A stretch of DNA of 64,000 nt from NCBI GenBank assembly GCA_019113985.1, contig DXGJ01000062.1:1-64000 (forward strand), in the 5' to 3' direction. The notes under the pieces were generated by a model. That model was not told the DNA's origin. It saw nothing but the letters and a program-made list of their open reading frames with translations, and searched no databases. Positions 16,148 to 53,132 of the stretch are shown here, piece by piece. Made by a program: the position numbers and the translations under genes. Positions within the stretch are counted from its first letter, which is position 1; every line of letters begins with the position of its first letter. This stretch comes from Candidatus Levilactobacillus faecigallinarum (GTDB lineage Bacteria; Bacillota; Bacilli; Lactobacillales; Lactobacillaceae).

Positions 16148-16510
16148 CGAAAAAACGGCTAGCCAAGTGCTAGTCGTTTTGTTATAAAATATTCAATAAT
16201 AAATATAAAAAAGCTTGTGAGCTAGTTAGTAGCTTTTGCCCATCAAGATATCGTAAAATCATCGTGTAAAAGGTTATGCCCCGTTGGCATTGTGGCTGAA
16301 TCTGGATGGTGTTTGGTTAGTGTGTTTGATTTCGTTACGTCTAATCCAGATAAAAGTGAGATAAATCAACGGTACAGCAACCGTTCATCATTCTTTTGCG
16401 GAAGTTATGATGAATTACACGCATCATCGGTTGTCTCAAAATAATTGAGAAAGTGGGATGGCGCAATCTCTCGGTCTGGACAATCACCAACGATCGCGCC
16501 AAACAGCAAG

Positions 16511-17116
16511 ATGGTTATCAAAGCGAAAGTATTTTTGGCATTAGCAACGCTAGGGATAGTGTTGCCGTTGACGGGGACGTTAGGGGTTCGTGCGGCGGAA
16601 ACGGCCACGCCAACTTCAGGTGCAAAAGTCAACGTTAAAGTTAAACCTGGAGAATTTACCTTTAAACAACAAGACAGTCAAGCAATGGTACCCTCATTCA
16701 GTTTTTCAGACGCTCAGGTTAGTAATGAAAACCAACAGCTAGAATTAAGTAATAAAGCAAATGAAAAGATTAGTGTAAATAACTACAGTGGAACGGGGGA
16801 AGCCTGGCAAGTCAATGCTAAGTTAAGTGCACTATCACTCACTAATGACAATAAGAAAGATGCAACTATTTCTGGGGCTTACATTAGCATGACCCCTAGC
16901 CAAACTTCTAACGTTGCATCCCCCAAAACCATTACTCCACAAGAGTTCACGGCTGGCGCTGAGTCCACGCCCTTACTTAAATTCGACAAAAATGAAGGCA
17001 TGGGTTCTATTGAATTTTCATTAACAAATGTCACCCTAAACCTTCCAAAAATCACATGGCAAGGAAGCTATACGGCAGACTTAACCTATACGTTGACGAA
17101 AACTCCAACAAATTAA
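16511..17116 (+). CDS. WxL-domain-like surface protein
   Basis: Signal peptide; FSFSDAQVSN; AWQVNAKLSAL; WQGSYTADLTYTLTKTPTN terminus. Confidence 0.7.
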   Translation: MVIKAKVFLALATLGIVLPLTGTLGVRAAETATPTSGAKVNVKVKPGEFTFKQQDSQAMVPSFSFSDAQVSNENQQLELSNKANEKISVNNYSGTGEAWQVNAKLSALSLTNDNKKDATISGAYISMTPSQTSNVASPKTITPQEFTAGAESTPLLKFDKNEGMGSIEFSLTNVTLNLPKITWQGSYTADLTYTLTKTPTN

Positions 17117-17134
17117 GATAATTCATTTATTCCG

Positions 17135-17176
17135 AGAAAAGCGCCTTTGGCTAGATCACACCAAAGGCGCTTTTCT
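17135..17176. terminator. Terminator between WxL-type genes
   Basis: AGAAAAGCGCCTTTGG ... CCAAAGGCGCTTTTCT. Confidence 0.8.
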
Positions 17177-17193
17177 ATGAAAGGATTCCGATT

Positions 17194-18243
17194 ATGGTAT
17201 TGAATAGGCGGTCTATTTTAATAACTATGTTTTTTACTTTATTTGGCATTTTACTACTTGGTTTTCCAACTTTAGTAGCTAGTGCAGATACAAGTGCTTT
17301 TAACGTCACTCCATTATTACCACGCGATAATGCGCCAATGGCCTCTTACTTTCAGTTCATGACGCACCCAGACGAACAACGAACCCTACACCTTAAAATC
17401 ACAAATCAAGGAACAAAATTAGGTACCTACGACATCACCCCTCGAATAGCGACAACCAACAGTAATGGCTATTTGGATTACAGTCTAGACAATACGAATG
17501 ATGCCTTGCCTGCCCATACTAATCAGCTCTTTGAAAAGGGACGTATCCGAACCACTATCGCACCAAATACAACAAAGGATATTCCCATAAGCTTTCACGC
17601 ACCAAAACAATCATTTAAGGGGATTTTGTTAGCTGGTCTGACGGTTAGTCAACATCAAACCAACAAGACTGTTCAAAAGGGTAATCGTATTGTCGCCCGG
17701 ACCGAATACGTCATTGCTTTAGAAACCTATCAACATAAACCGCAAAGCATTGGTCTACCGAACATTACCTTCAAGGGCGCCCGCTATCAATTGGCCCAAG
17801 CACTACCGCAAATCACATTGGGTATCACCAACCATTCACCGCAACTAGTTTCCCAAGGGATGCTAACCGCAACCTTACGTGATGCAGCAGGCAAGGCGAC
17901 TGCCAAATTCAAGAAAGAGCAATTATTATTTGCCCCCCAAAGCGCCTTCGGCTTAAACCTATCCCTAAACAATCGACAACTACCAGCAGGGGCCTACACG
18001 TTAGTGGGCCGGCTCAAGGCCCATGGTGGTGGCGAATATCCGTTTGAATTTCCCGTTGAGATCACCGCTGCCCAGACTAGGAACGTCAAGCGGCACGCCG
18101 CAGACTTTGCAGCCAAGCCCACCCATAACTGGTTACTTGATGGGGCCATTGCCGCATTGGTATTGGTTGGTAGCGGTGTTGGTTACCAACTTGGGAGGAA
18201 GCGACACGCTCTGCGAGAACCGAAACATTCAAGAAACCGGTGA
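17194..18243 (+). CDS. DUF916/DUF3324-type WxL-interacting surface protein
   Basis: Signal peptide; FNVTPLLPRDNAP...YFQFMTHPDEQRTLHLKITNQG; C-terminal TM plus basic tail. Confidence 0.8.
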   Translation: MVLNRRSILITMFFTLFGILLLGFPTLVASADTSAFNVTPLLPRDNAPMASYFQFMTHPDEQRTLHLKITNQGTKLGTYDITPRIATTNSNGYLDYSLDNTNDALPAHTNQLFEKGRIRTTIAPNTTKDIPISFHAPKQSFKGILLAGLTVSQHQTNKTVQKGNRIVARTEYVIALETYQHKPQSIGLPNITFKGARYQLAQALPQITLGITNHSPQLVSQGMLTATLRDAAGKATAKFKKEQLLFAPQSAFGLNLSLNNRQLPAGAYTLVGRLKAHGGGEYPFEFPVEITAAQTRNVKRHAADFAAKPTHNWLLDGAIAALVLVGSGVGYQLGRKRHALREPKHSRNR

Positions 18244-18320
18244 AAACTTTCGATTGTTTAATAACATATGTTAAATAACATAATTTTATGACAGCGAATT
18301 ATGCGTTAGAGGGGGATGCG

Positions 18321-19058
18321 ATGAAGCGTACAATTTTTAAAATGCAACATTGGATTTTAATTATTTTAATAATCGTCATACTTGATATTTGCAACGTGTC
18401 TGCAACTGCAACCGCGACAACTAATTTTACTTCTGATCCACCATCCGTTAAAACACGTGGGATAATTGGCTGGATTACCTCCGAATTTACAAGCCTAGTA
18501 AAAAATATCTCAAGCCAATTCCCACATCTGAATCCTAGCCAAACAAAGGACATCGCACAACAAATTAAAAATGCTTCATCGAATTCCAGTAAAATTACCG
18601 AGATTTTAAATAATGCTCAGGTAGCTGAAGCTAAAGCGGCTAAAACAGAAAGTCCCTCCGGTAAATTAAACTTTTCGCGAGATACTCGACCACCGGATTT
18701 TTCTTTTCCTGATATAAAAATCACTGGCATAACGCAACAGGTTCAACTGAATCTTAGTGATAACAAAATCGATGTAGACAGCACGCCCAAAAAGAACTGG
18801 ATCCTTCAAGCGCAGTTGTCGAATTTTAAAGATACAAATAATCATTTACTCGATGCCACATTGGCGTTAATGGACAAATCGTCAACTACCTTAGCTACAC
18901 TAACCACTGATGGAAAGGCCGTGCCATTGATGACAAGCCAAAGTTATAAAAAGGGCGGTATCTATATACCAAAGGCAGTCCTGAATATTGAACCTATAAC
19001 TTACAGCGGTACCTATTCAGCTATCATCACCTATAGACTGATCAATGGCGTGGGTTAG
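18321..19058 (+). CDS. WxL-like surface protein
   Basis: Signal peptide; WILQAQLSNFKD; NIEPITYSGTYSAIITYRLINGVG. Confidence 0.6.
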   Translation: MKRTIFKMQHWILIILIIVILDICNVSATATATTNFTSDPPSVKTRGIIGWITSEFTSLVKNISSQFPHLNPSQTKDIAQQIKNASSNSSKITEILNNAQVAEAKAAKTESPSGKLNFSRDTRPPDFSFPDIKITGITQQVQLNLSDNKIDVDSTPKKNWILQAQLSNFKDTNNHLLDATLALMDKSSTTLATLTTDGKAVPLMTSQSYKKGGIYIPKAVLNIEPITYSGTYSAIITYRLINGVG

Positions 19059-28890: not shown

Positions 28891-29700
28891 CTACCGCATA
28901 ATCAGAATCAAATGACCGTTCAACGTCTTTTGTGAGAGTTTCCCCGAAAGTGGGGACCATAACGCGTATTGGGTGGCGTGATGGGCTTGCAGTTGTTGCT
29001 CAACGTAGGTCGCCATCGAAAGGGCCAGCTGGCCGTTCCCCGTAGCCTCTAGTTGCTGGTTACCATTCTTAGGGTCAATCCAGTGGGTGATATTAGGGAG
29101 CTTGTCCAGTGATGTGGCGCTTAGCTGACTTAGTTGAAGTCCCTTGGGATGCTCAATTTTAAACGCGTCGGCTAGGGGCAGCGTTTGGGGCGTCAAATCG
29201 TTAGACCAGTAGTAGTCCATAATCATCGCCAATGGGCTACTATAAACGTACCCGTCATCTTGAAGCTTGGTTCGAACGACCCGGTCGAACTGATTCTGTT
29301 GGTTATAGGTCACGGGCGAGGACAGGTGCAAGCCATCGGATGCCGGTGCGGCCTGTTTCGTGGCCGTTCCCGGTGCCAAGAAGCCGTGCCAGATCCAGCC
29401 ACCGACTTGGTGTCGCTGATTGGTCACGTAGACGTATTCGGCGTGTTTATTCTTATGGGATAAGATGACCGAATAGGTGGCGTACCAGGTGGTGTGGGGG
29501 TAGTTCTTGATGTTGTGGTACTTGCGGGTGTGTTGCCAGTTCATCAGGTAGTGCGTGGCCGAACTACGGTTATGGTAGGCCTGGGGAAAGACGAGGGCCC
29601 CGCCACTAATCCAGGTGTAGCTACTAGCGGATGCCGTCGTGATGCCCATTAGACTGGCGAGAACGGCGACAGCTAAACTCAAGCGAAATTTGTGAAACAC
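28891..29700 (-). CDS. Hypothetical secreted protein
   Basis: Signal peptide MFHKFRLSLAVAVLASLMGITTASAS. Confidence 0.75.
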   Translation of the reverse strand: MFHKFRLSLAVAVLASLMGITTASASSYTWISGGALVFPQAYHNRSSATHYLMNWQHTRKYHNIKNYPHTTWYATYSVILSHKNKHAEYVYVTNQRHQVGGWIWHGFLAPGTATKQAAPASDGLHLSSPVTYNQQNQFDRVVRTKLQDDGYVYSSPLAMIMDYYWSNDLTPQTLPLADAFKIEHPKGLQLSQLSATSLDKLPNITHWIDPKNGNQQLEATGNGQLALSMATYVEQQLQAHHATQYALWSPLSGKLSQKTLNGHLILIMR

Positions 29701-29935
29701 AGTGATCTCCTCCTCAACGTGGTAGCGGATAACCCCGGTGTTTGTGACCGCTACCTAGGTTTATCATACACGTTTACAAAGAGGATGGGATGAGAAAAAT
29801 AAGTTTCTCTAAGCTGGAACTATCTTTGCTGCCAACAATTACCGTTAATGTAAAAGTTATGTACAGATCATGTAAATATCCTTGTTCGGTTAAATTTCCT
29901 TTGTTAAGTTTAAGCTAATTGGGAAGTGATTACTC

Positions 29936-32900
29936 ATGACAAATATAGAGTTTCCAAAGCTTATCAGGCATATGCATCAAATCATCACAAAAGACTCCCC
30001 CGGATGTCTTATGACGCTCGGGGCGCCCATGGGGAGTGGCAAGACTTATGGCATAATTCAATATATCAGCCATAAGATGATAGCCGATTCAAGCTTTCGA
30101 GTCTTTTTTGTAGCTAATCAGTTAACGGGATTACATGAGAATGCGTTTTTTTCGGCAATTCTTGCCGCTTACCAAGAAGCATATGGTCCATTTGCCACGA
30201 CTGCTGATCAAAAGTGGTATCTCGATCAACATGTCGCAATTTTAAAATCACTGCCAAACAGCGTTGCAGCTTTATTAGAAACCCCCTTACCACCAGAGCT
30301 TAATACCAATCAAATTCATCATTTCATGGAAATCTTATCTCAATATCATCGGCGCTATCAGAACCGACCAAGCGACAGCATTAGTGACGGTAGTGCCGAT
30401 TGGCAAAACCTCAAAAACGCCTATGAAGAGGTAAAAAGGGCAATAGTTGAGACGGTTGCATCCGCTCTTCATCTCAGTGTGCCATTATCCCGTGTCGATC
30501 GACATAAGATTCAACAATACGTAGCAACCCAGAAAACGGCGTTGACTGCCTTCTTGGTCCATTGCTTTTCAACTATCGATTTGGAAAAACGTCAATTGGT
30601 TATCCTAACATCAGCTAAGCTTATCAGCACCTATCTAGATTTTTTTACCGGGAAATCGCTACCAGTTAGTCGTAAACAGTGTCTGGGAAATGCGCTGATT
30701 GTTATTGACGAGATTGATAACTTAAAGCCCATTATTTTGGACAAAATCATTGATGATGCACAACGATTTCCAATCGACTTTTTGCCATTTTTCAAAGAAG
30801 TTTACGCAGGGGTCAATCACCCCCAAAAGAAGCGTCCCGTAGGTATTTTAAAAATTTTGCGCAAAGACCATCAACTAAGTACCTTGAAGCATCTCATCAA
30901 TAATTTAGCCCAAGAGTATGAGCTTGAAGAGGACTATAAAACTGTTAATATCCAAACCACCAACAATTTCATTTTCACATTAGATAACATCACAGAGACT
31001 ACGCATGGTCCTTGGTGGAGTCGTCAGGATAAAGAGAAACAACAAGTTACAATCTACACTGGAAAATCGCCACAGGAGAATAATCTGCATTTTTATCGAA
31101 TGCTCCGGCGGATGGGTCATTTTCAGATGACATTAGCCCGCTTGATCAATGACTGGGCTATGCAGTATCAACAAAAAGTCAATCGTCAACGTCAAGCATT
31201 AGATAATCAATTCAGCTTGAATGATGCCATATTAACGATTTGTGATTGTCTGGGCTTTTCTACTGAATCCAAACAATTGATGATGGCGCTACATCAACGC
31301 TTAGGTCATCTCCACGGCAAACCATTAAATTTACCCAAGGGCCAATATGGACAATACCTACAACGAACTGGTCTTCAATTATTTTCAATGACCGATGGTG
31401 ATGCACACCTCAATAGAACCTCATTGGGGGCCGTATTCATTCAAGAAACACCGGAAAAGTTTTTATTAAAGTTAGCCCAGCGAGGACCAGTTTTAGGGGT
31501 GTCAGCAACCGTTGATGTAGAAACAGTTCTGGGGAATTTTGATTTTAATTTTTTACGTGAACAATTAGGAGACCACTTATTAGATGGAAATCAAGATTTA
31601 TCTGCAACAACACGGCAACAATTTGATGTCAGTCAGCGATGCCGTCAACAGGGGATATCCGTCAAAATCTTGCCCGTGATTTCTGAGTATGGCGACGTTG
31701 AAGATGGTCAATGCATGCGAAGGCTTATTCGAAAAAGGTTACCCGATTTTTCTGAACAATCTGTGCTTAATCCTCATCTCCGACAGCTCGAAGATATCGT
31801 TCGGCAACTAACGTGTGATATTCGACGTGTAAACGATAACGACCAATCCTGTAGTTACTATCAAAATCGGTATTTAGATCTCTTTGACAGCTTTATTTGT
31901 TTCTTGATTCAGCCTAAAATGCCAACATTTCTGGGACTTCAAAGCGTTTCACCCAAGTCACAGGGGGAACCTAATGAAAGTCAAATGGCAGCAACGAGTA
32001 TTGGCCAGGTCTTTAATCTGTTGGCAATTATCCTTTGCTCACAAGAGAAGAATCAACCCCAATTACGATTAATAAAAAAGAAGCAAGATATAGAGAGGCA
32101 GACGATTGAAGAGCAAATCAATCAGGCACTCATGCTTCCGGAAAAAGATGAAACGCGCGTCTACTTGCTAAGCGCCTATCAAACGTTAGGGGTTGGACAA
32201 AACCTGGTTCACAATATTGGTGTACTCGAGAAAAAATGGGCAATTAATATTGCCCCTCAAGATGCTGAGATAAGCGATTCTCGTCACCGAAAAATCGATA
32301 TTTCCGGTATCTACTACGGTCCCATTACCCATATCTTTTCAAATACGAATCAGGATTTTTCGAAACAATTAACTAGAAGCTGGATTTTAAAATACTATCA
32401 ACTTTATAGTCTGGTGGATAATCACGAGATATCGCTACTTGACGTAAAAAAGTATGCACGGGCACAAAGTCAGCGACGACATGTTCCGCAACTACGCCAA
32501 AGCATTAGTTATTTTGGCGCGCAAACACGAATCGTTTTACAAGCGGCGGGACGCCTGGATCGAACCTTTAACAAGGTGCCTACTACACTAGTTGTTGTAA
32601 GTTCTGATATTCTCAATTATTTTAACGTCTTCCCACTGCAAGATTATCAGCTCGGTCCCATTGCGCAGGCCCTACGTACTTATCAACAGCAAAAAAAGAT
32701 GCCCGCTTTTACACCCGAACAAGCCACGAGAAATGAGTGGGAAAATCAAACATTAAAAACACAAAAGACGGTTGACTACTTGAAACAACACTTACAGGAA
32801 CGGGGACCTGCTAATCGATTCAAACATTATCGCGACGAACTTATTCATTATCCAACAGTTGGTTTCGAACACTATCATGCTAATGAGGATAAACCGGAAT

Positions 32901-33529
32901 TTGCCTACCTCCATGAGGCCACCACTTGCTACCACGTTCAGCGGCAGGGGGAGACGTTTACCTTTTTACCAGACAACCTGGGGAACGAAATTGTCTCGGC
33001 CGAAAATACGGGGTTGACCGCAATGATGCATAATTCCCTTTTAGCAGCCCACTTTGATGCACTTCATTATCCGAAACATTGGGAAAAATTAGCTTATACG
33101 CTCAATCCGGTCCAAGCTGACAGCTACAAAGGACGATTAGGAGAGATATGTGGGCAATGTCTACTTGAGCATTACTGGCACGTCACCTTAACTGAATTAC
33201 CCTTACAATTCAACGAATTCTTTGACTTTGAAACGGCCAATAAGGTCCTCATTGATTTTAAGAATTGGCAACAGCCCCATCAACGGAATTTTAAACAGGA
33301 GCGTCAACATGTCCAAGAAAAACTGGATGTGATTCGTCAAAATAAGCCAACCGAGAATTGGCGCGTTTTAATTATTAATATTCTCCAACCGCGCGGTGAT
33401 CAAGTGTTTCATATTCAGGCTGTCAATTCACAACACATTTTAGAGGTTCCTTACTTATTGAATCAAAAGGGCGTATTCATACTAACGCCTGCACAACAGC
33501 AAAGGGTGGCGAAATTTTTAAATGGTTAA
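29936..33529 (+). CDS. Large SF2-like helicase with C-terminal PD-(D/E)XK-like nuclease domain
   Basis: Walker A GAPMGSGKTYG, Walker B NALIVIDEIDNLKP, motif III-like GVSAT, YQTLGVGQNL, QAAGRLDRTF; C-term YKGRLGEICGQCLLEHYW ... FFDFETANKVLIDFKNW. Confidence 0.75.
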   Translation: MTNIEFPKLIRHMHQIITKDSPGCLMTLGAPMGSGKTYGIIQYISHKMIADSSFRVFFVANQLTGLHENAFFSAILAAYQEAYGPFATTADQKWYLDQHVAILKSLPNSVAALLETPLPPELNTNQIHHFMEILSQYHRRYQNRPSDSISDGSADWQNLKNAYEEVKRAIVETVASALHLSVPLSRVDRHKIQQYVATQKTALTAFLVHCFSTIDLEKRQLVILTSAKLISTYLDFFTGKSLPVSRKQCLGNALIVIDEIDNLKPIILDKIIDDAQRFPIDFLPFFKEVYAGVNHPQKKRPVGILKILRKDHQLSTLKHLINNLAQEYELEEDYKTVNIQTTNNFIFTLDNITETTHGPWWSRQDKEKQQVTIYTGKSPQENNLHFYRMLRRMGHFQMTLARLINDWAMQYQQKVNRQRQALDNQFSLNDAILTICDCLGFSTESKQLMMALHQRLGHLHGKPLNLPKGQYGQYLQRTGLQLFSMTDGDAHLNRTSLGAVFIQETPEKFLLKLAQRGPVLGVSATVDVETVLGNFDFNFLREQLGDHLLDGNQDLSATTRQQFDVSQRCRQQGISVKILPVISEYGDVEDGQCMRRLIRKRLPDFSEQSVLNPHLRQLEDIVRQLTCDIRRVNDNDQSCSYYQNRYLDLFDSFICFLIQPKMPTFLGLQSVSPKSQGEPNESQMAATSIGQVFNLLAIILCSQEKNQPQLRLIKKKQDIERQTIEEQINQALMLPEKDETRVYLLSAYQTLGVGQNLVHNIGVLEKKWAINIAPQDAEISDSRHRKIDISGIYYGPITHIFSNTNQDFSKQLTRSWILKYYQLYSLVDNHEISLLDVKKYARAQSQRRHVPQLRQSISYFGAQTRIVLQAAGRLDRTFNKVPTTLVVVSSDILNYFNVFPLQDYQLGPIAQALRTYQQQKKMPAFTPEQATRNEWENQTLKTQKTVDYLKQHLQERGPANRFKHYRDELIHYPTVGFEHYHANEDKPEFAYLHEATTCYHVQRQGETFTFLPDNLGNEIVSAENTGLTAMMHNSLLAAHFDALHYPKHWEKLAYTLNPVQADSYKGRLGEICGQCLLEHYWHVTLTELPLQFNEFFDFETANKVLIDFKNWQQPHQRNFKQERQHVQEKLDVIRQNKPTENWRVLIINILQPRGDQVFHIQAVNSQHILEVPYLLNQKGVFILTPAQQQRVAKFLNG

Positions 33530-35603
33530 TCATTCTGAAATGACCCTGACTAACAAGATTTCCTTTCAACTTGATGAAATCGGCTTTGATCAACGCTACA
33601 GACTACTCTTGGTTGAAACACTCGCTCCTCAAAAACTAACAGATTGGTTTAACGCCTGTCCAATCTTAGCGATGCACCGTTTACGACGTCATGTTAATCC
33701 CCAAACGAAAAAGTCGGATGGACCCTATCGTTATTTGGCGATGGTGGACCGCCTGATTAACTTACCCCGATTAGACGCAATTCATGTAACACCGGTCAGA
33801 GTACGTCAGGCGCTTCAACAGGGAATTACGTCGGATACCATCGTCTTTATGATGCTTAAACAGCTCACTCAGTGCCGTATTGAAGATAATGTTCTTGGCA
33901 ACTATGATGCTGTAAGTGATTTATATTTAACACTGTCCCATGGCTATAAGAAACAGAAACACACTTTGGTTGTCATTGAAGTCAAGTTAGATAATCGTGT
34001 TTTACGTTTGATTAGTAGAACTTTTACGGAGGTCTCCAGAAAGGGCTATGTCATTAGCGGTGATTGCTTAAAATGGTCTAACGGTGGTCCAGGGCCATTT
34101 TTTAAGAAAGCTAGTCATAATGGTATTAAGAATTTAACAACTTTTTTATCGCTACAGGATTTCCAAAAATTTAATAACAGTAAAGCCGGTATTGCCTATC
34201 GCTTGATGACGCAACTACGAGAGAGATATCTCGATTGTTTTAAAATCGTACCAAGTTTTTGCGCTTACCCCGTACAAAATTATACGGGGCGGTTAAAAAC
34301 CACTGCAGAACAGCAAGCTCTAAAAATGCTGGCAAATCGTCCCTTGAACATCGTAACAGCTTCTAGCGATGATAAAGTTCAAAATATGGCCAATTATTTA
34401 GTAGTGCAATTAGAGCGGAGCCCCCGACTGCAAAAAAATCGAACCATTATAACAACCAGTTCTAAACCCAAACCTGGGTTAAATATACAGGTTGTGCAAG
34501 ATCTTTCCGACCCCACGTATTTAATGGGGTCGGCAACAACCATCATTCAACACGTAACCGTTAATAACTTCGGTCAAAGTGACGAGAATTTCCAATTCCA
34601 ATGGCGCGTTAAATCAGGACAGGATATATGGGATGATCCGAGGTTTCGAACAACCATTTATCAATTAGGGGTTAAACAAGATGTCTATTGTCATCAGTTG
34701 AATTTTCCCTCGGATGTGGAGGCCCAGTTTGCCGCTAAATATCGTTATTTTGATTTTCATGAATTAGATGAACAAACCGTGCAAGTTACGTACCTAGACA
34801 TTAACGCAGATAAGCGGCAACTAAACTTTAAACGATTTCGGTTGAACATGGGTCAACATAATGAACCGCCCACCGAAATTGAACAGGCTGCTTGTGCAAT
34901 TTGGCAGTGTCCTGATGAAAATTCCAAATTGTTGTTAGGCGGTCTTCAAGTTGACAACCAACTCTTTGCCATTTATAGAAGTGATTTGGAAACAGTTCCC
35001 GATTTGTCCAAGATAAAAACAGCGCTGGTTGCCGCAAATCAAAGCGATTATGTTAATTTGGCTGATTTAAAATTAGTTGCTCAAGACGTCTTGTTAGAAA
35101 ACAAAAAAGATGTCTTACATAAACAACAACTAATTGCAGACTTACAAAAAATTCCTACGGGACGGTTGACGATTGCAGAGCTTCGCCAAAGTATCTCACA
35201 AAATTGGCGTTCAAATGTGATGAAGCGTTTTGCGGATGATTACCATGCCAGTTATGATAAATGGCTCTATCTCCCGATTCGTCGTAAACAATTCGACGCC
35301 TATTGGGTTGGTATGTACGGAAGTGGCTTACTGAACATTGCAGGAGATGCCTACTATTTTGTGGGCCAGCAACAACAACTAGACGTAAAGGTTTCACGTG
35401 CCGTTCCTTTAAAGAAACTAGTTTCGGTGAACAGCCATCAGTCGGTAACCGAAAGTCAGTTAGCATTTGATGTCTTAGCGAACCTCATGCAGGTTGGTTT
35501 CGTTCGGTACAATCAATACACGGTTTTACCATTTCCGTTTAAGTATATTCGAGAATATAACGATATATTAAAACATCGAGACAAAAGGGGCTTGCCAAAT
35601 TGA
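33522..35603 (+). CDS. Uncharacterised 693-aa protein, possible divergent pPIWI_RE-like component
   Basis: 8-bp overlap with the helicase gene; MID/RNase H-like stretch TTIYQLGVKQDVYCHQLNFP and C-terminal AFDVLANLMQVGFVRYNQYTVLPFPFKYIREYNDI. Confidence 0.5.
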   Translation: MVNHSEMTLTNKISFQLDEIGFDQRYRLLLVETLAPQKLTDWFNACPILAMHRLRRHVNPQTKKSDGPYRYLAMVDRLINLPRLDAIHVTPVRVRQALQQGITSDTIVFMMLKQLTQCRIEDNVLGNYDAVSDLYLTLSHGYKKQKHTLVVIEVKLDNRVLRLISRTFTEVSRKGYVISGDCLKWSNGGPGPFFKKASHNGIKNLTTFLSLQDFQKFNNSKAGIAYRLMTQLRERYLDCFKIVPSFCAYPVQNYTGRLKTTAEQQALKMLANRPLNIVTASSDDKVQNMANYLVVQLERSPRLQKNRTIITTSSKPKPGLNIQVVQDLSDPTYLMGSATTIIQHVTVNNFGQSDENFQFQWRVKSGQDIWDDPRFRTTIYQLGVKQDVYCHQLNFPSDVEAQFAAKYRYFDFHELDEQTVQVTYLDINADKRQLNFKRFRLNMGQHNEPPTEIEQAACAIWQCPDENSKLLLGGLQVDNQLFAIYRSDLETVPDLSKIKTALVAANQSDYVNLADLKLVAQDVLLENKKDVLHKQQLIADLQKIPTGRLTIAELRQSISQNWRSNVMKRFADDYHASYDKWLYLPIRRKQFDAYWVGMYGSGLLNIAGDAYYFVGQQQQLDVKVSRAVPLKKLVSVNSHQSVTESQLAFDVLANLMQVGFVRYNQYTVLPFPFKYIREYNDILKHRDKRGLPN

Positions 35604-35833
35604 TTAAATTAAAGGTACTACGCAGACTTAATCTTTAAAAAAGAGAAGTGTAAGGCTTTAATCGATGAATACGGAACGACTCTAAGTCTGGTTCTAGAAA
35701 GTTGATGCAATGCTGCTTTATATTCAACCCTAACAAAATTGTCGGCTTTCCACCCCGGTAGCGTTATACTCGTCATTGAGTCATAATTGATGAGATATGG
35801 TGATCACAAACCATAACGGGGAGGCAATTCAAC

Positions 35834-36706
35834 ATGCATAAGATTCATTGGCAACGGGCAGTGCGGCGACTGGGGATGTTAGCCGGACTCGTCTTACTCC
35901 TAAGCGGGTGTGGGCAAGTCACCAAAACGTCTACGCCGGCCAAGGTCGCGCAAACCACTTACGGTGACCGGTACGTACCGACCCTGTTTTTCCACGGATA
36001 TGGCAGTAGCGCCAACGCCGAGATGCACATGATCCACGCGGCGGAAGCGGCCGGCGTCACTAAGACCGTCCTGCGCGCCACGGTCGCCAAGAACGGCACC
36101 GTCACCTGGCGTGGGCAGTTTAAGCAGGGGGATTACCATCCCTTAGTGGCCGTGGAATTCAAAGATAACCAGAACGGTGACTACCAAACTACGGCGGGCT
36201 GGGCCAAACGCATCATCAAAGGGCTTCAGCAGTCCTACCACATCACAAAATTTAACGTGGTCGGCCACTCGATGGGCAACATGGCCATTATGTACTACCT
36301 ACTCGCTAACGGGCAGAACCGCCACTTGCCACAATTACAGAGGCAAGTGGACATCGCGGGGCACTTCAACGGTATCCTGGGGATGAATGATCAGCCCAAC
36401 CGGATGAAGTTGACCACCGCGGGGAAGCCCACCAAAATGGACCGCGATTACCAGCAACTGTTGGCACTCCGGCAACGGTTCCCACGGCAGATTCGCGTGT
36501 TGAACATTTACGGCGACAAGAACGATGGCACGCACTCGGACGGCCGCGTCAGCAACGCCTCGTCGAAGTCGTTGCGCTACCTGGTTCAAAGCCGGGCAAC
36601 GTCCTACCAGGAACACCGCATCGTGGGACCCAATGCCCAGCATAGTAAGTTACATGATAACGCTCAGGTCGACCGGGCCCTGATAAAGTTTTTGTGGGGG
36701 AAGTAG
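35834..36706 (+). CDS. Alpha/beta hydrolase (DUF915-type), lipoprotein
   Basis: LLLSGCGQ lipobox; TLFFHGYGSSANAEMHMI; NVVGHSMGNMAIMYYL. Confidence 0.88.
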   Translation: MHKIHWQRAVRRLGMLAGLVLLLSGCGQVTKTSTPAKVAQTTYGDRYVPTLFFHGYGSSANAEMHMIHAAEAAGVTKTVLRATVAKNGTVTWRGQFKQGDYHPLVAVEFKDNQNGDYQTTAGWAKRIIKGLQQSYHITKFNVVGHSMGNMAIMYYLLANGQNRHLPQLQRQVDIAGHFNGILGMNDQPNRMKLTTAGKPTKMDRDYQQLLALRQRFPRQIRVLNIYGDKNDGTHSDGRVSNASSKSLRYLVQSRATSYQEHRIVGPNAQHSKLHDNAQVDRALIKFLWGK

Positions 36707-36714
36707 CCCGGTAA

Positions 36715-36760
36715 AATCGTCTTGTGCCGTTTGTTCAGATGACAAGCGGTACAGACGATT
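36715..36760. terminator. Rho-independent terminator
   Basis: AAAATCGTCTTGTGCCG ... CGGTACAGACGATTTT. Confidence 0.75.
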
Positions 36761-36851
36761 TTTTCTGTGTTCCTTAGAGCTTTGCGTTTCCCCAGGGAAA
36801 CATTCTATGCTAAAATGATGATAAAGAAAATCCAGATTGGATTGATGCAGC

Positions 36852-37196
36852 GTGGGACAGGCAGCTGACATAAAGCAAATAATTGTTTTAATTAAAAGCA
36901 ACCGGAGAAAATGGCGAATTAGTCATCGTCAAAAAAACATGGCGGCGATGGTAATCTTGGGGATTGACCTAGACGAAATTCTAAACGAAATCTATGCAAA
37001 AATTACTTGGTTGGATTACGTGAGTGGACCAGAGTATGACAATCATATCCCACTGATTCCCGGGCCAGTCTGGGTATTCGGTATGAATCTAGAAGATGTC
37101 GAGTGTTATCTTAAATTTCAAGTTAAAGACAAAAATATCATCTTTTGGATTTCAGCACATCCTGCTGAGCATCATCTTGTCTATCCTTATAAGTGA
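36852..37196 (+). CDS. MqsR-family-like toxin (GTG start)
   Basis: RQKNMAAMVILGIDLDEILNEIYAKITWLDYVSGPEYDNHIPLIPGPVWVFG ... ISAHPAEHHLVYPYK. Confidence 0.7.
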   Translation: MGQAADIKQIIVLIKSNRRKWRISHRQKNMAAMVILGIDLDEILNEIYAKITWLDYVSGPEYDNHIPLIPGPVWVFGMNLEDVECYLKFQVKDKNIIFWISAHPAEHHLVYPYK

Positions 37197-37240
37197 TAGC
37201 TATGCATCGCGGATTGTTTATATCGAGGAGGTTATCCTAA

Positions 37241-37807
37241 TTGAATAGAAGGACTTTTTATAACCCTGAGACCGAAACTAGCGGAGAATACACTGAGGTT
37301 TGGAAAAATGAAGTTGTTGCGGTAAAGGATGTTAAGGATCTACTGGTAACAAACCACTATTGGAAAGATGATAATGAAGGGGAATTGTGGCTCGACTTTG
37401 ATGATCCAAATGAGAACTTTAGAGTGGCTTTTAATGCATACCGCAGTAGAAAAGGCTATATGAAACCGCAAGAAATTAAAAACTTACGGAAAGATTTAAG
37501 CCTTGATATTCGTAGTTTTGCTGAAAGACTAGGAATCAGCTATTCTAAGCTATCCCAAATCGAAAATAATAAGCGAGTTCAAACCCTTTCTCAGGAAGTT
37601 TCATTTAGAAAAGCGCAGCAGGACTATGAGCGGCAAGGCTTCTTGACAGACTATTCGGAATCGTTAAGTGCAGCGAAGCTGTTAGCTACGGCTATAGAGC
37701 GTCGTGAACCCAATAGCGTAAGGCAACCGAATAAATCTTATCTATTAAAAGATTATTCTAATGAAAATTATTTTGAAATTACCAGTTTTACAGGAGGCCT
37801 TGCATGA
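37241..37807 (+). CDS. MqsA/Xre-type antitoxin with C-terminal extension
   Basis: YMKPQEIKNLRKDLSLDIRSFAERLGISYSKLSQIENNKRVQT HTH followed by ~70-aa tail. Confidence 0.75.
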   Translation: MNRRTFYNPETETSGEYTEVWKNEVVAVKDVKDLLVTNHYWKDDNEGELWLDFDDPNENFRVAFNAYRSRKGYMKPQEIKNLRKDLSLDIRSFAERLGISYSKLSQIENNKRVQTLSQEVSFRKAQQDYERQGFLTDYSESLSAAKLLATAIERREPNSVRQPNKSYLLKDYSNENYFEITSFTGGLA

Positions 37808-38241
37808 TGGCAGTTACGGTATTGGAATTTAAAGGCTACTTGGTCAAAGAACAGAGTTACAAGAAAAATGAAGATTTTAAAAAAACAGATCAAGGGGTAG
37901 AACTTAATCCACAGATAGACTTAAATATAGAAAATAATATTAAGGGAGATAGTATTTTAGTTACGCTTGGTGTTAAGGTTGGTTCTTTAACTGACGATCC
38001 CTTTGAGGTAATTGTTCGAGTTTGTGGAAGATTTGTTTATCATATTGAAAAGGACACTAACAAGATTGGTGTCGATACTTTGATTAGAAGTAATGCGGTT
38101 GCCATTCTGTATCCGTATGTGCGTTCTATTGTATCAGGCTTAACCAATACGTCTAACGAGTACCCGGCATGTATATTACCAACCATTGATGTGGCACAAG
38201 TTCTTAAAGAACAGCCAGGAACGTCAGAGATAGCTGACTAA
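37804..38241 (+). CDS. SecB-like chaperone of TA locus
   Basis: Overlaps the antitoxin stop; RSNAVAILYPYVRSIVSGLTNTSNEYPACILPTIDVAQVL resembles SecB C-terminal half. Confidence 0.7.
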   Translation: MMAVTVLEFKGYLVKEQSYKKNEDFKKTDQGVELNPQIDLNIENNIKGDSILVTLGVKVGSLTDDPFEVIVRVCGRFVYHIEKDTNKIGVDTLIRSNAVAILYPYVRSIVSGLTNTSNEYPACILPTIDVAQVLKEQPGTSEIAD

Positions 38242-38502
38242 TGAGTGATGCTTATATATACTTGTTATAGCTTTCTTCTAATTCTTAAAGAGATTATTAA
38301 AGACACCCGGACAGGTCTAGGTGTTTTTTTTCGTACATTCAAGAACGTGTGGAATTAAAACCGATGAGTACACGTTCCATGCGAACCGCAATATGGAGCA
38401 TGGTATACTAAACAGCGAGCCAATCCGCCAAGAAAATCATCGACGGACCGGCCATCACCAGACTCGTTTCACGCATCAAAAAATGACTTATGGAGGAACA
38501 GT

Positions 38503-40716
38503 ATGGCAACCAACTCATCAGAAACTAACCTGGTCGACCTAGCCCAGCCGGTGCAGCACACCCTGAGCCAGTACCGGGTCCAACAGATTCAGGCCGTGTT
38601 GGGCCTCCTGGACGAGGGCAACACGGTGCCCTTCATCGCCCGTTACCGCAAGGAGCGGACCGGGGCCCTGGACGAAGTCGCCATTCGCGACATCGAAGAC
38701 GAAGCCCATCGCCTCCAAAAGCTCAACCAACGCCGTCAGGACGTCCTGAAGCTGATTCAGGAACAGGGCAAACTATCCGCGACCTTAACCCAATCCTTAG
38801 CACGGGCCACCACGCTCCAACAGGTGGAAGACCTCTACTTACCCTACAAGCAAAAGCGCCGGACCAAGGCCACAGTGGCCCGAGAAGCCGGTTTGGCGCC
38901 GTTGGCCGAGTGGCTCTTGACCTATCCCGCCAACGGCCTCGACGCCAAGGCTCGGACGTTTATCGCCGCAGATAAGGACCTGCCCGACCTCACCAGCGTT
39001 TGGACCGGGGTCCACGAGATCCTCGCCGAGACCTTTAGCGAGCAGGCTGCCTTCCGGGAGTGGATTCGGCGTTATACCTGGCAACACGGCGAGCTGACCA
39101 GTAAGCTCAAGCGTGGGGCTAAGGCGGCCGACGAACAACAGGTCTACGCGACCTATTACGACTTTAGCCAGGCACTGAAGCAGGTGCCACCGTACCGGGT
39201 TCTGGCCATCAACCGAGGCGAACGGGAGAAGGTCCTGTCGGTCGGCATCGCCGTCGACCCCGCGTCCATTTTGCAGTACGGGCATTTCCGCCTGGTTGGT
39301 CAGCACACCGGACCGGCCGTGGCCAAGGTAACGGCTGCCTTTGCTGACGCCTACAAGCGGTTCCTGGGGCCGGCCATCGAACGAGAACTGCGGCGCCAGT
39401 TGTCTGAAACGGCCGACGCGCACGCCATTCAGGTCTTTGGCAACAACCTGTACCACCTGTTGATGCAGGCACCGTTAAAGGGCAAGGTGGTCATGGGCTT
39501 CGATCCGGCGTATCGGACGGGCTGTAAGCTCGCCATCATGGATGCCAACGGCCGCTTCCTGACCAAGCAGGTCATTTACCCGCATAAACCCGCCAGCGGG
39601 AAGCAACGGGCTGCAGCCGGACCCGAATTTAAGCAATTACTTGAAAAATACCACGTTGAAATGATTGCGATCGGTAACGGGACCGCCAGCCGGGAATCCG
39701 AGGAGTTCGTCAGTGGCATCTTAAAGACGTTAGACCATCCCGTCTACTACGTCATCGTCAACGAGGCCGGGGCATCGGTCTACTCGGCCAGTGCCAACGC
39801 CCGGGCGGAGTTCGCCGACCTGCACGTTGAGGAACGCTCGGCTGTTAGTATCGGCCGCCGGCTCCAGGACCCACTAGCCGAGCTGATCAAGGTCGACCCC
39901 AAGGCCATTGGTGTCGGCCAGTACCAACACGACGTCCCCGAAAAGGCCCTGGATGAACAGCTAGACCGGGTGGTGGAAACCGCGGTCAACCAGGTCGGGG
40001 TCAACGTCAACACGGCCAGTCCGGAGCTATTGACCCACATTTCCGGACTAACGGCGACCACCGCACAGAACGTTGTGACCTACCGTAACGAAAACGGGGC
40101 GTTTGCCACCCGCCAGGCCCTAAAGGCGGTCCCACGGTTGGGACCCAAGGCCTACCAGCAGGCGGTGGGCTTCCTGCGAATCTTAAGCGGCAGTAACCCG
40201 CTGGATAACACGGACATCCACCCGGAGAGCTACGCGGCGGCTAAGGCGTTGCTGGCGGGCATCGGCGCCACACCGCAGGACATTGGGACAGCCAAGCTCC
40301 AGCAACAGCTGAGCCAGTTGAACCAGCACCAGTGGGCCACGCAACTGGGCATCGGTGAGGCGACCTTAACGGACATCCTGGACGGGCTGAGTAAGCCCGG
40401 TCGAGACCTGCGGGATAGTATGCCGGCACCGTTACTGCGCCAGGACGTGCTAACCATGGCCGACTTGAAACCGGGGATGGAACTCCAAGGAACCGTCCGC
40501 AACGTCATCGATTTTGGTGCCTTTGTCGACATCGGCGTCAAGCAGGACGGCCTAGTTCACATCTCGCAACTGGCCGACCACTACGTCAGTGACCCCAGCA
40601 CGGTGGTCACGATTGGCGACGTGGTGACCGTCTGGGTCCTGAGCGTGGACCAACAGCGCCACCGGATTCAGTTGACCATGCGAGCCGATTCGGCGGTCAA
40701 GCCGGGCCAAGGATAA
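38503..40716 (+). CDS. tex: Tex family S1 RNA-binding transcription accessory protein
   Basis: NTVPFIARYRKERTGALDE; MGFDPAYRTGCKLAIMD; C-terminal S1 GTVRNVIDFGAFVDIGVKQDGLVHISQL. Confidence 0.95.
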   Translation: MATNSSETNLVDLAQPVQHTLSQYRVQQIQAVLGLLDEGNTVPFIARYRKERTGALDEVAIRDIEDEAHRLQKLNQRRQDVLKLIQEQGKLSATLTQSLARATTLQQVEDLYLPYKQKRRTKATVAREAGLAPLAEWLLTYPANGLDAKARTFIAADKDLPDLTSVWTGVHEILAETFSEQAAFREWIRRYTWQHGELTSKLKRGAKAADEQQVYATYYDFSQALKQVPPYRVLAINRGEREKVLSVGIAVDPASILQYGHFRLVGQHTGPAVAKVTAAFADAYKRFLGPAIERELRRQLSETADAHAIQVFGNNLYHLLMQAPLKGKVVMGFDPAYRTGCKLAIMDANGRFLTKQVIYPHKPASGKQRAAAGPEFKQLLEKYHVEMIAIGNGTASRESEEFVSGILKTLDHPVYYVIVNEAGASVYSASANARAEFADLHVEERSAVSIGRRLQDPLAELIKVDPKAIGVGQYQHDVPEKALDEQLDRVVETAVNQVGVNVNTASPELLTHISGLTATTAQNVVTYRNENGAFATRQALKAVPRLGPKAYQQAVGFLRILSGSNPLDNTDIHPESYAAAKALLAGIGATPQDIGTAKLQQQLSQLNQHQWATQLGIGEATLTDILDGLSKPGRDLRDSMPAPLLRQDVLTMADLKPGMELQGTVRNVIDFGAFVDIGVKQDGLVHISQLADHYVSDPSTVVTIGDVVTVWVLSVDQQRHRIQLTMRADSAVKPGQG

Positions 40717-44942: not shown

Positions 44943-45779
44943 CTATGCAGTTTTTAGAATGGCATGATTCCGAAATTCTTTCGGAGTCATGCCATTTAGT
45001 GTTTCTTGGCGACGCTTGTAGTTATACCAATTGATACACTTTTCGATAAGTTGAACCATTTGTTCACGATTTAATGCATGGTGAAAATTAAAAAACTCGG
45101 TCTTCATATGACTCCAGAAGCTTTCCATAGGACTGTTATCACCCGGAGTTCCTGGCCGCGACATACTATGCTTAATCCCTTTGCTAGCTAAATGATCGTT
45201 AAATACTCCAGATGTATAGCTTGACCCTTGATCTGAGTGTAAAACCGCTGGTTTTACACCATTGTTTATTACCAATGCTTTATCCAGCGTTCGAGTCACT
45301 AAGTCGGCCGTCTCAGTTTCTTCAACGTCCCACGCGATGATACTATGGTCGCTCAAGTCCTTGATTGCACTAAGCCTCAGACGTTCATTGAATTTCCAAC
45401 CAAAATGTAACTCCGAACAATCAGTTACCCAGACCCGGTTTGGCTCGTACGGTTTAAAGTCATGTCCTTCGTCCGTAAGGAGAAGGTTATTACTAATGTG
45501 CTCTTTCTTCTGAGCTTTTCGATTCTTCTTTGCCACGCGAATCGAAGCTACGATATCATTTTCACGCATGATTCGACGCATTTTTCCAGCACTAGTATGA
45601 TACGTTGTATCAAGATGGAGGTTCATCATTAATCTTCGTACGCCAAGGGTGTACTCGTTTTCTTCTTCAATAGTTTTGACATACTTCAAAATCTCTCTAT
45701 CTTCTAGAGCGCGCTTGCTCGGGGTTCGGTGTATCCATTTGTAGTATGCAGCGCGTGAGACCTTCATAAAACGGCACAT
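44943..45779 (-). CDS. IS3 family transposase orfB (integrase core); frame extends upstream into the orfA overlap
   Basis: VWVTDCSELHFG, VLHSDQGSSYTS, SRPGTPGDNSPMESFWSHMKTE DDE motifs. Confidence 0.92.
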   Translation of the reverse strand: MCRFMKVSRAAYYKWIHRTPSKRALEDREILKYVKTIEEENEYTLGVRRLMMNLHLDTTYHTSAGKMRRIMRENDIVASIRVAKKNRKAQKKEHISNNLLLTDEGHDFKPYEPNRVWVTDCSELHFGWKFNERLRLSAIKDLSDHSIIAWDVEETETADLVTRTLDKALVINNGVKPAVLHSDQGSSYTSGVFNDHLASKGIKHSMSRPGTPGDNSPMESFWSHMKTEFFNFHHALNREQMVQLIEKCINWYNYKRRQETLNGMTPKEFRNHAILKTA

Positions 45780-45826
45780 AAAACTAACTCCATAAACTCG
45801 GTTCGTATCAGGATTAAGCGTAGTTG

Positions 45827-46531
45827 CTAACGTTTGGATTGTTTCGTAGATGTGTTGTGAGTGGCATCCAACCTTTCCAATTCTTGGAGTTTTTTTAGAA
45901 CTGCATTCTCTGTCGATAAATGTTCAATTCGAGCTTTAAGCCGCTTGACCTCAAGGTCACGCTTCTCGTCATCTGTGAGCTGGTCTATGGCCTTTCCTTT
46001 ACCACGACGATCGACAAGGGCTTCAGGTCCGCCTTGTTTAAACTTCCGAGTCCACGAATAAACCTGACCATATGATACGTTGTACTTGCTCATTGCACGG
46101 GAATAATCCATGTCATTTGCTATGATCCATTGAACAATTTCTACACGTTCCAATTGTGTTGTTTTTCGACCGTTTTTCACTCTTTTCACGCTCCTAGTGG
46201 TGAGTTGTTTACCACTAGTATACTGATGAACCCATTGATAGATAGTACCAACGTTAGGAATATTATATTTATCGCACAGTCGGGGATAAGAAGTGTGTCC
46301 TTCTAGGTACTCCAGGACTATTTTTAACTTCAAATCGCCCGAATATTTTCCTATGGATTGATGCCGTAGGCCATCGATCCCTTGCAGTTTATAATTCTTT
46401 ACCCATTGGCTCACCTGACTATGCGCAATGCCATACTGTCTTTGAATGGCATTAGGTGCCATGCCCTCAACAACTAGACCAATGTAAAATAGCTTCTTTT
46501 CAATCGGATAGCGAGAACCTTTTCTGCCCAT
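45827..46531 (-). CDS. IS3 family transposase orfA (HTH)
   Basis: Repeated HTH segments; C-terminal leucine-rich VKRLKARIEHLSTENAVLKKLQEL. Confidence 0.9.
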   Translation of the reverse strand: MGRKGSRYPIEKKLFYIGLVVEGMAPNAIQRQYGIAHSQVSQWVKNYKLQGIDGLRHQSIGKYSGDLKLKIVLEYLEGHTSYPRLCDKYNIPNVGTIYQWVHQYTSGKQLTTRSVKRVKNGRKTTQLERVEIVQWIIANDMDYSRAMSKYNVSYGQVYSWTRKFKQGGPEALVDRRGKGKAIDQLTDDEKRDLEVKRLKARIEHLSTENAVLKKLQELERLDATHNTSTKQSKR

Positions 46532-51119: not shown

Positions 51120-51493
51120 TTATTTAAGATCAAATATCGTACTATGACTACCAATTGCAATGAGCGTCGTTACCTCAGGAGTATCATGATACACCAATAA
51201 ATGGTCGCCATTATGGCCATCAAAATGAAGCTCAAGAATTTCAATTTTAATATTTTTTCCTAAACGCTGTTTAATCTGTTGTTTCAGCTTATCGGAAACC
51301 GATAACTGATGCGCGTAAAAATAGCTCGGAATAGGTTGCTCCGTTAAAAAACAATTTAGAATATAGCGCCAAGGAGACTGCGAATCGTCAGCAAAGGGTA
51401 GGCTACCTTGAAATATTGGTTGCCATCGCGGATTTTTTTAATCTTCTTAAACTGTTTATGAAATAGTGTTGTCCGTTCAAGCCGATGAGCCAT
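51120..51493 (-). pseudogene. Frameshifted RelE/YafQ-type toxin
   Basis: MAHRLERTTLFHKQFKKIKKIRDGNQYF then frameshift to SDKLKQQIKQRLGKNIKIEILELHFDGHNGDHLLVYHDTPEVTTLIAIGSHSTIFDLK*. Confidence 0.75.
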
Positions 51494-51774
51494 CAATCAA
51501 GCGACCGTTCAAAATCGTCTAATGTTGTACCACCTGGTAGTGGTCGTTGTTGGGCCTTGGCATCGACCATTTCTAAGATAGCGTCGTTAACTGCCATATT
51601 AGGGAGAGCAAAATTATCTGGTAATCCGTGTTCAGCAACACCCGTTAAGATGATTCGAACATATTCGGAAATTGTGAGACCATTTTTTTCAAGTTCCTTT
51701 TGGGCCTTCAACTTAATCTCTGCATTAATCCGTGAATTGATTCGATCAGTTTCAGTATTTTGCATATGTGGCAC
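51493..51774 (-). CDS. RelB/DinJ family antitoxin
   Basis: TDRINSRINAEIKLKAQKELEKNGLTISEYVRIILTGVAEHGLPDN. Confidence 0.88.
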   Translation of the reverse strand: MPHMQNTETDRINSRINAEIKLKAQKELEKNGLTISEYVRIILTGVAEHGLPDNFALPNMAVNDAILEMVDAKAQQRPLPGGTTLDDFERSLD

Positions 51775-51928
51775 CTCCTCAGTCAGTCATTGTACACCAT
51801 ACGTCATACAAATTAACTAAACAACATCATTTAAAAACGATAGCTAGGCTAACATATACGAATTGCCTCTTTTGCTTAGACAGACGGGTTTTCATATTTT
51901 ACTAAGATTATTGAATTGCCAGCTAGTG

Positions 51929-52993
51929 CTACATCTTATCCAATCCTTCGCGCTGCTCCTCATCAATCATATGGGTGTACAGCCCGGTCGCACTGGTCGA
52001 GTTCTGACCCAATTGGGTGGCAACTAGCTGCTCGTTCTTAGTTGCCAGGTAAAGCTTTGAGGCCAAGGTATGGCGGAGCTTATGCGGTGTAATCCGGACC
52101 TTAAACGCCGCGGAGTACTTCGCCACCATCTTCTCAATCGTATTGGACTGCATCCGTGACGCCTGACCACGATAAATCGTCAGGAATAGGGCCCGGTCGT
52201 CACTTGCCGCGTGGTAGAGAGCCTGGCGCTGTTCGACGTAGGTCTGGATGTACGGCATGGTCCAGGGGGCAATGGGCACCGTGTCCCGTTGGCCGCCCTT
52301 GCGCACCACGCCAATGGTCGCCGTCTTGAGGTTCAGGTGGCGTAAATCAGCGTTGGCCGCTTCGGAGACCCGCAGGCCACTGCCCAGTAGGAGGGCGTTA
52401 ATCGCCAGGTCACGCAACTTGTCACGTTTGAAATAGCGCCGCTTGGCTGGGGTCAGCTGTTGCTCATAGGTGTGGTCGATAAAGTCCAAGTACTCGTGAT
52501 CGGTGTTGCCCAGCATCAGCTTAGTCTTCAGATTCGCGGCCCGGGTCGCATAGGTCTCGTTGGTTCGGACCAGGGCAATCTTGTGCATCACGTTACGGTC
52601 AAAATAAGCCTCACCATGCTCGTCTTCGGTGTCTTCGGTCAGATACTTAAAGAGCGATGACAGGGCGTTCAGCGAGCGGTTAATAGTGGGATGCGAGCGA
52701 CTACCGGGGGCGCCGGTTAACTTGGTCTGGTTCAGGAGGGCGGACTTATACAACTCGACGGTCTCCTTCTTCAACTTCGCCAACACGTCGATAGGGATAT
52801 CGGCAGGGCGCGTCGCCGGGGTGAGCCCCTCACTGATCAGCCAGTTAAAGAACCGGCGAAACTCCGTCAGGTACTGGTACAACGTCGCCGGTGAGAGGGG
52901 GATGGTCGACTTGGCCTGATAGTATTCCTGCACGAACCAGGGGGCGTTGGTTAATTCCTCATCAATCAATTTGAGATAGTGTTGCTTTTCCAT
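51929..52993 (-). CDS. xerS: Tyrosine recombinase XerS-like
   Basis: RDLAINALLLGSGLRVSEAANADLRHLN; HKLRHTLASKLY; Tyr in SATGLYTHM; ATG at 52993. Confidence 0.85.
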   Translation of the reverse strand: MEKQHYLKLIDEELTNAPWFVQEYYQAKSTIPLSPATLYQYLTEFRRFFNWLISEGLTPATRPADIPIDVLAKLKKETVELYKSALLNQTKLTGAPGSRSHPTINRSLNALSSLFKYLTEDTEDEHGEAYFDRNVMHKIALVRTNETYATRAANLKTKLMLGNTDHEYLDFIDHTYEQQLTPAKRRYFKRDKLRDLAINALLLGSGLRVSEAANADLRHLNLKTATIGVVRKGGQRDTVPIAPWTMPYIQTYVEQRQALYHAASDDRALFLTIYRGQASRMQSNTIEKMVAKYSAAFKVRITPHKLRHTLASKLYLATKNEQLVATQLGQNSTSATGLYTHMIDEEQREGLDKM

Positions 52994-53132
52994 GAGCAGG
53001 CCTCCAAACATATGTTCTAGTTACCTATTATGATACCGGGACAGTCGTTAAATGTAAAGCCAGGTCGTTGTAATTCTGCCCAGTTATCATTCGCGCTTAC
53101 GAAGGTGATTATTTCCGGACGGAGATTGTAGC

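Follow-up and report, generated by a model that had tools for sequence, protein, structure and literature searches.

Two large genes lie side by side on the forward strand of the window, i.e. the whole 64,000-nucleotide stretch of DNA analysed here, which comes from a 72%-complete draft genome. The first, ddmD (29936..33529, +), encodes a 1197-aa protein, an SF2 (DinG/XPD-like) helicase with a C-terminal PD-(D/E)XK nuclease. The second, ddmE (33522..35603, +), encodes a 693-aa Argonaute-like partner, a putative guide-binding protein of the long pAgo kind that is predicted to be catalytically inactive. The ATG of ddmE is at position 33522 and the TAA of ddmD at 33527-33529. The two genes share 8 bp (ATGGTTAA, 33522..33529, +), as read directly from the sequence, and from this overlap we infer translational coupling. 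Open reading frames of 1197 and 693 codons are not due to chance, given their length and the conservation of their homologues across genera.

The GC content was 0.40-0.43 across 30-36 kb, with ~41% for the ddmDE block, and roughly 0.49-0.61 in the flanks, at 19-30 kb and 38.5-44 kb (window GC profile). The original prediction, made from the letters of this DNA, had described two large overlapping genes in an AT-rich block between GC-richer ones. Both the gene layout, with its 8-bp overlap, and the AT-rich block were found as claimed. Upstream of ddmD lies a divergent open reading frame (28891-29700) without a Pfam match. A promoter scan 5' of ddmD gave matches no more common than those in shuffled sequence. 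A further segment of the window, at 16445-19058 (GC about 0.42), holds a WxL surface-protein cluster. It encodes a protein with a WxL domain, a WxL-interacting protein and a third, secreted-looking one that has no Pfam match.

The helicase and nuclease motifs of DdmD are, by sequence, intact, including the catalytic residues. Walker A (LGAPMGSGKTYGI, 30017..30055, +) spans residues 28-40, and its G33 and K36 do not vary among 16 homologues. In the same 16 proteins, D258, E259 and D261 are invariant in the Walker B / DExD motif (LIVIDEIDNLK, 30695..30727, +), and so are all three residues of the SAT motif (S523-A524-T525). Helicase motif VI (IVLQAAGRLDRTFNKVP, 32531..32581, +) covers residues 866-882, of which Q869, A870, G872, R873 and R876 are invariant. 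The PD-(D/E)XK core (33119..33274, +) reads GE1070 ... FD1097 ... ID1107-F-K1109, again with E1070, D1097, D1107 and K1109 invariant in the 16 homologues, and this nuclease motif aligns with VIDFKNW of the Lactobacillus casei DdmD (9ix4). The fusion of a helicase with a PD-(D/E)XK-like nuclease, as originally proposed for the first gene, is confirmed by these motifs, as are the sites singled out for mutation, K36 of Walker A and the IDFK motif (here D1107/K1109).

Database searches placed the whole DdmD chain in a known family. The PADLOC DdmD model matched with an E value of 4.8e-23. In the PDB sequence search, residues 21-1197 aligned with L. casei DdmD (9ix4) at E=8.8e-145, and V. cholerae DdmD was matched at E=2.4e-23. 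A profile built from the 16 homologues gave E=0 against L. casei DdmD and about 1e-71 against V. cholerae DdmD. The AlphaFold2 model of DdmD had a mean pLDDT of 82.7. When this model was searched with Foldseek, the first 21 PDB matches were all chains from DdmD/DdmDE structures of L. casei or V. cholerae, and homology to DdmD extended over the whole chain (E=2.3e-75). After these 21 came the DinG and XPD helicases (6fws, DinG, E=1.5e-9). These SF2 helicases are the closest non-DdmD folds; they differ from DdmD in having neither a C-terminal PD-(D/E)XK nuclease nor an operon partner.

The partner protein was recognised as DdmE by sequence and by predicted fold. A single-sequence phmmer search matched it to L. 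casei DdmE (9iw3) at E=7.5e-31. A profile of 20 DdmE sequences matched L. casei DdmE over its whole length at 7.7e-211 and V. cholerae DdmE at 1.3e-15, and the PADLOC DdmE model gave a weak match at the C-terminus (E=0.0024). The AlphaFold2 model (pLDDT 88.4, pTM 0.86) was superposed by Foldseek on L. casei DdmE 9iw3 with a TM score of 0.84 and E=5.8e-51. Its next PDB matches were V. cholerae DdmE, followed by human Argonaute2, the M. jannaschii Argonaute (MjAgo) and Piwi. In the predicted structure, DdmE has a long-pAgo-like fold and is homologous to known DdmE. Among the 20 aligned DdmE sequences, no Asp was found to be invariant or nearly so, which indicates that the D-E-D-x tetrad of PIWI domains is missing. 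By this conservation argument, DdmE is predicted to be catalytically inactive, as expected of a DdmE.

Overall, by sequence, profile and fold, both proteins resemble those of the L. casei DdmDE system (9ix4, 9iw3, 9ixm; Huang et al. 2024, Cell Res 34:873, cited in PMC12409362) along practically the whole chain, and the L. casei structures (9ix4 and 9ixm, with 9iw3) head the Foldseek PDB matches of the two models. The L. casei proteins are of similar length (DdmD 1192 aa and DdmE 715 aa, compared with 1197 and 693 aa here), and the two DdmD proteins share the helicase motifs and the IDFKNW nuclease motif. Identities in the structural alignments are about 29% for DdmD and 21-22% for DdmE, values that point to a separate clade of the lactobacillus branch. 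The DdmDE of the V. cholerae island VPI-2 (8u3k, 9ezy, 9bgk and others) shares domain architecture, fold and two-component logic, at 15-17% identity in structural alignments. In V. cholerae, a WYL/HTH regulator gene precedes the ddmDE genes in the operon (PMC12409362), whereas here the unrelated divergent open reading frame takes this position.

These comparisons bear on what kind of system the locus represents. The original prediction was of an undescribed two-gene anti-phage or anti-plasmid system, with a second protein of no common family that could be named. Pfam and NCBIfam speak for this view, since nothing significant was found there for either DdmD or DdmE. The statement about the partner thus holds for these two collections, but not for PADLOC and the PDB, in which DdmE was matched. 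Both proteins match solved DdmD and DdmE structures over their full length, by sequence and fold, and their relatives share the same operon architecture. The PADLOC and Foldseek searches, which had been suggested as checks, gave a clear assignment to a known system whose L. casei representative is structurally solved. A new system is ruled out by the PADLOC matches and by the sequence and fold matches in the PDB, and we give it practically no chance. The idea of a coupled two-gene defence module, in which a helicase-PD-(D/E)XK fusion acts with a partner, possibly against plasmids, stands once the claim of novelty is removed: the module is DdmDE.

A second candidate was the ApsAB type, described in E. 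coli ST38, which likewise pairs a helicase-PD-(D/E)XK protein (ApsA) with an Argonaute-like protein (ApsB) and acts against plasmids, but as a related, distinct family (PMC11096173). ApsA and DdmD are both members of a broad helicase-nuclease family in which intermediates exist (PMC11096173). The partner, however, is DdmE-like by sequence and fold and not ApsB-like, and ApsB was reported to have no similarity to DdmE (PMC11096173). In addition, DdmD is shorter than ApsA: the nuclease residues of ApsA are at 1420-1435 and its Walker A at 218-222 (PMC11096173), compared with a protein of 1197 aa and a Walker A at residues 30-37 here. The DdmE matches of the partner and the size of DdmD led us to reject an ApsAB-type locus as highly improbable, with ApsB compared by its published description.

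The same pair of genes was found in other genomes of the family. A DdmE-like match was present in 26 of 401 genomes, and the DdmE-like gene adjoined a DdmD-like gene in 19 of the 20 loci fetched with their flanks. The exception (L035) runs off the end of its contig, and the same genome has a ddmD at the end of contig G053:C30. Wherever both genes were intact single frames, which was so in 14 relatives, ddmD came before ddmE, with an overlap of 8-47 bp. Pairwise identities between loci were strongly correlated for the two proteins (r=0.99, Mantel p=1e-4). Such a correlation fits co-inheritance of D and E, although ordinary descent also contributes to it. The named relatives were mostly Levilactobacillus, foremost L. 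acidifarinae (65% DdmD identity), together with Lactiplantibacillus, Secundilactobacillus, Companilactobacillus and Loigolactobacillus. In the genus of the window, DdmD was found in 10 of 36 genomes, which indicates an accessory, patchy system. In the plasmid collection searched, the sole DdmE-like match was a distant one on a Nostoc plasmid, with no plasmid-borne lactobacillus copy. In several relatives one of the genes is broken into two open frames: ddmD in L040, L041, L045 and L049, and ddmE in L038 (TAG). The breaks suggest either that the system has been inactivated repeatedly or that they are errors of sequencing.

We read the locus as a chromosomal DdmDE anti-plasmid operon of the L. 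casei type in a Levilactobacillus-like genome (probability about 95%). Family membership, intact motifs, an Argonaute-type DdmE fold and a conserved operon architecture are established here. By homology, DNA-guided plasmid elimination is the likely role, and the original guess of an anti-plasmid function was probably right. In V. cholerae, DdmE finds plasmid DNA with single-stranded DNA guides and recruits DdmD, an autoinhibited dimer that opens, loads onto the non-target strand, moves 5'-to-3' and cuts by its nuclease domain (PMC12409362). Judging from this published work on relatives, the DdmE of the window, Argonaute-like but without nuclease activity, would load short DNA guides, pair with plasmid DNA and then recruit DdmD. 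Until that point DdmD would be held as an autoinhibited dimer. Once recruited, it would load on the displaced strand, translocate as an SF2 helicase and cut with its C-terminal PD-(D/E)XK domain, and the plasmid would be lost. The catalytic motifs and folds that the V. cholerae model requires are present here, and by homology the system is presumably active.

The target could nevertheless be another one. DdmE is so divergent from its L. casei counterpart (21-22% identity) that it could use another type of guide or prefer other targets, and the operon might mainly restrict phages, conjugative DNA or DNA taken up by natural transformation rather than small plasmids. The experimentally studied DdmDE members act on plasmids (PMC12409362), and the cousin system ApsAB was inactive against eight phages (PMC11096173), which makes such a preference unlikely. 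We consider it similarly unlikely that the Levilactobacillus clade has shifted its guide chemistry or its target, e.g. to phages or conjugative elements, with the DdmD engine retained.

Since DdmDE has already been characterised in V. cholerae and L. casei, the anti-plasmid operon described here adds a further example and no new defence class. It is well conserved in food-associated lactobacilli, and roughly one in four of the congeners examined carries it. If active, it could help to explain why vectors are rejected or lost in some Levilactobacillus strains. The DdmE homologues collected here also form a diverse set for mapping the guide-binding site.

Downstream of ddmE, beyond a DUF915 hydrolase gene and a terminator-like hairpin of 14 pairs (36722-36754), three genes for a toxin, an antitoxin and a SecB-like chaperone lie at 36852-38241, before the Tex gene. 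The TA-chaperone locus that had been noted downstream is indeed present there. The antitoxin has an HTH and a match to the MqsA family (TIGR03830, 5.4e-8, under the curated cut-off). For the chaperone, the SecB match exceeded the Pfam gathering score, and PADLOC gave a match to its PD-T4-9_C model. The small toxin matched no Pfam family, and its MqsR type is suggested by its antitoxin and chaperone partners. From their sequences, the three genes look like a tripartite toxin-antitoxin-chaperone module of the MqsRA/SecB-like type, and MqsRA/SecB modules are already known (PMC5105189). Homologues of all three genes were found together at L075:821-2183.

We considered whether these genes could be part of the ddmDE module and rejected this, as they lie behind the DUF915 gene and the hairpin, which separates ddmE-DUF915 from them, and as the relatives scanned did not link them to ddmDE. 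With the genes of the window as queries, the 8-18 kb stretches of nine ddmDE-bearing relatives (L030-L037, L050/L073) showed no copy of the trio next to ddmDE. In two close relatives, L070 and L071, about 140 bp separate DUF915 from Tex and the module is missing at this junction, which indicates that its arrival was independent of that of ddmDE. The ddmDE genes of L. acidifarinae are situated about 2.4 kb downstream of Tex, whereas in the window they lie upstream of DUF915, the toxin-antitoxin-chaperone genes and Tex (L073:2731-12869 compared with 28891-40716 of the window). This difference in position marks the region around Tex as a variable locus.

Further along the window, a tyrosine recombinase gene (Phage_integrase, 3.8e-22) adjoins that of a RelB-type antitoxin (51493-53011). 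The pair is at the edge of an AT-rich block at 44-52 kb, which also has an IS3-like transposase pair (44943-46531). Together with the recombinase, this block is possibly a small mobile segment.
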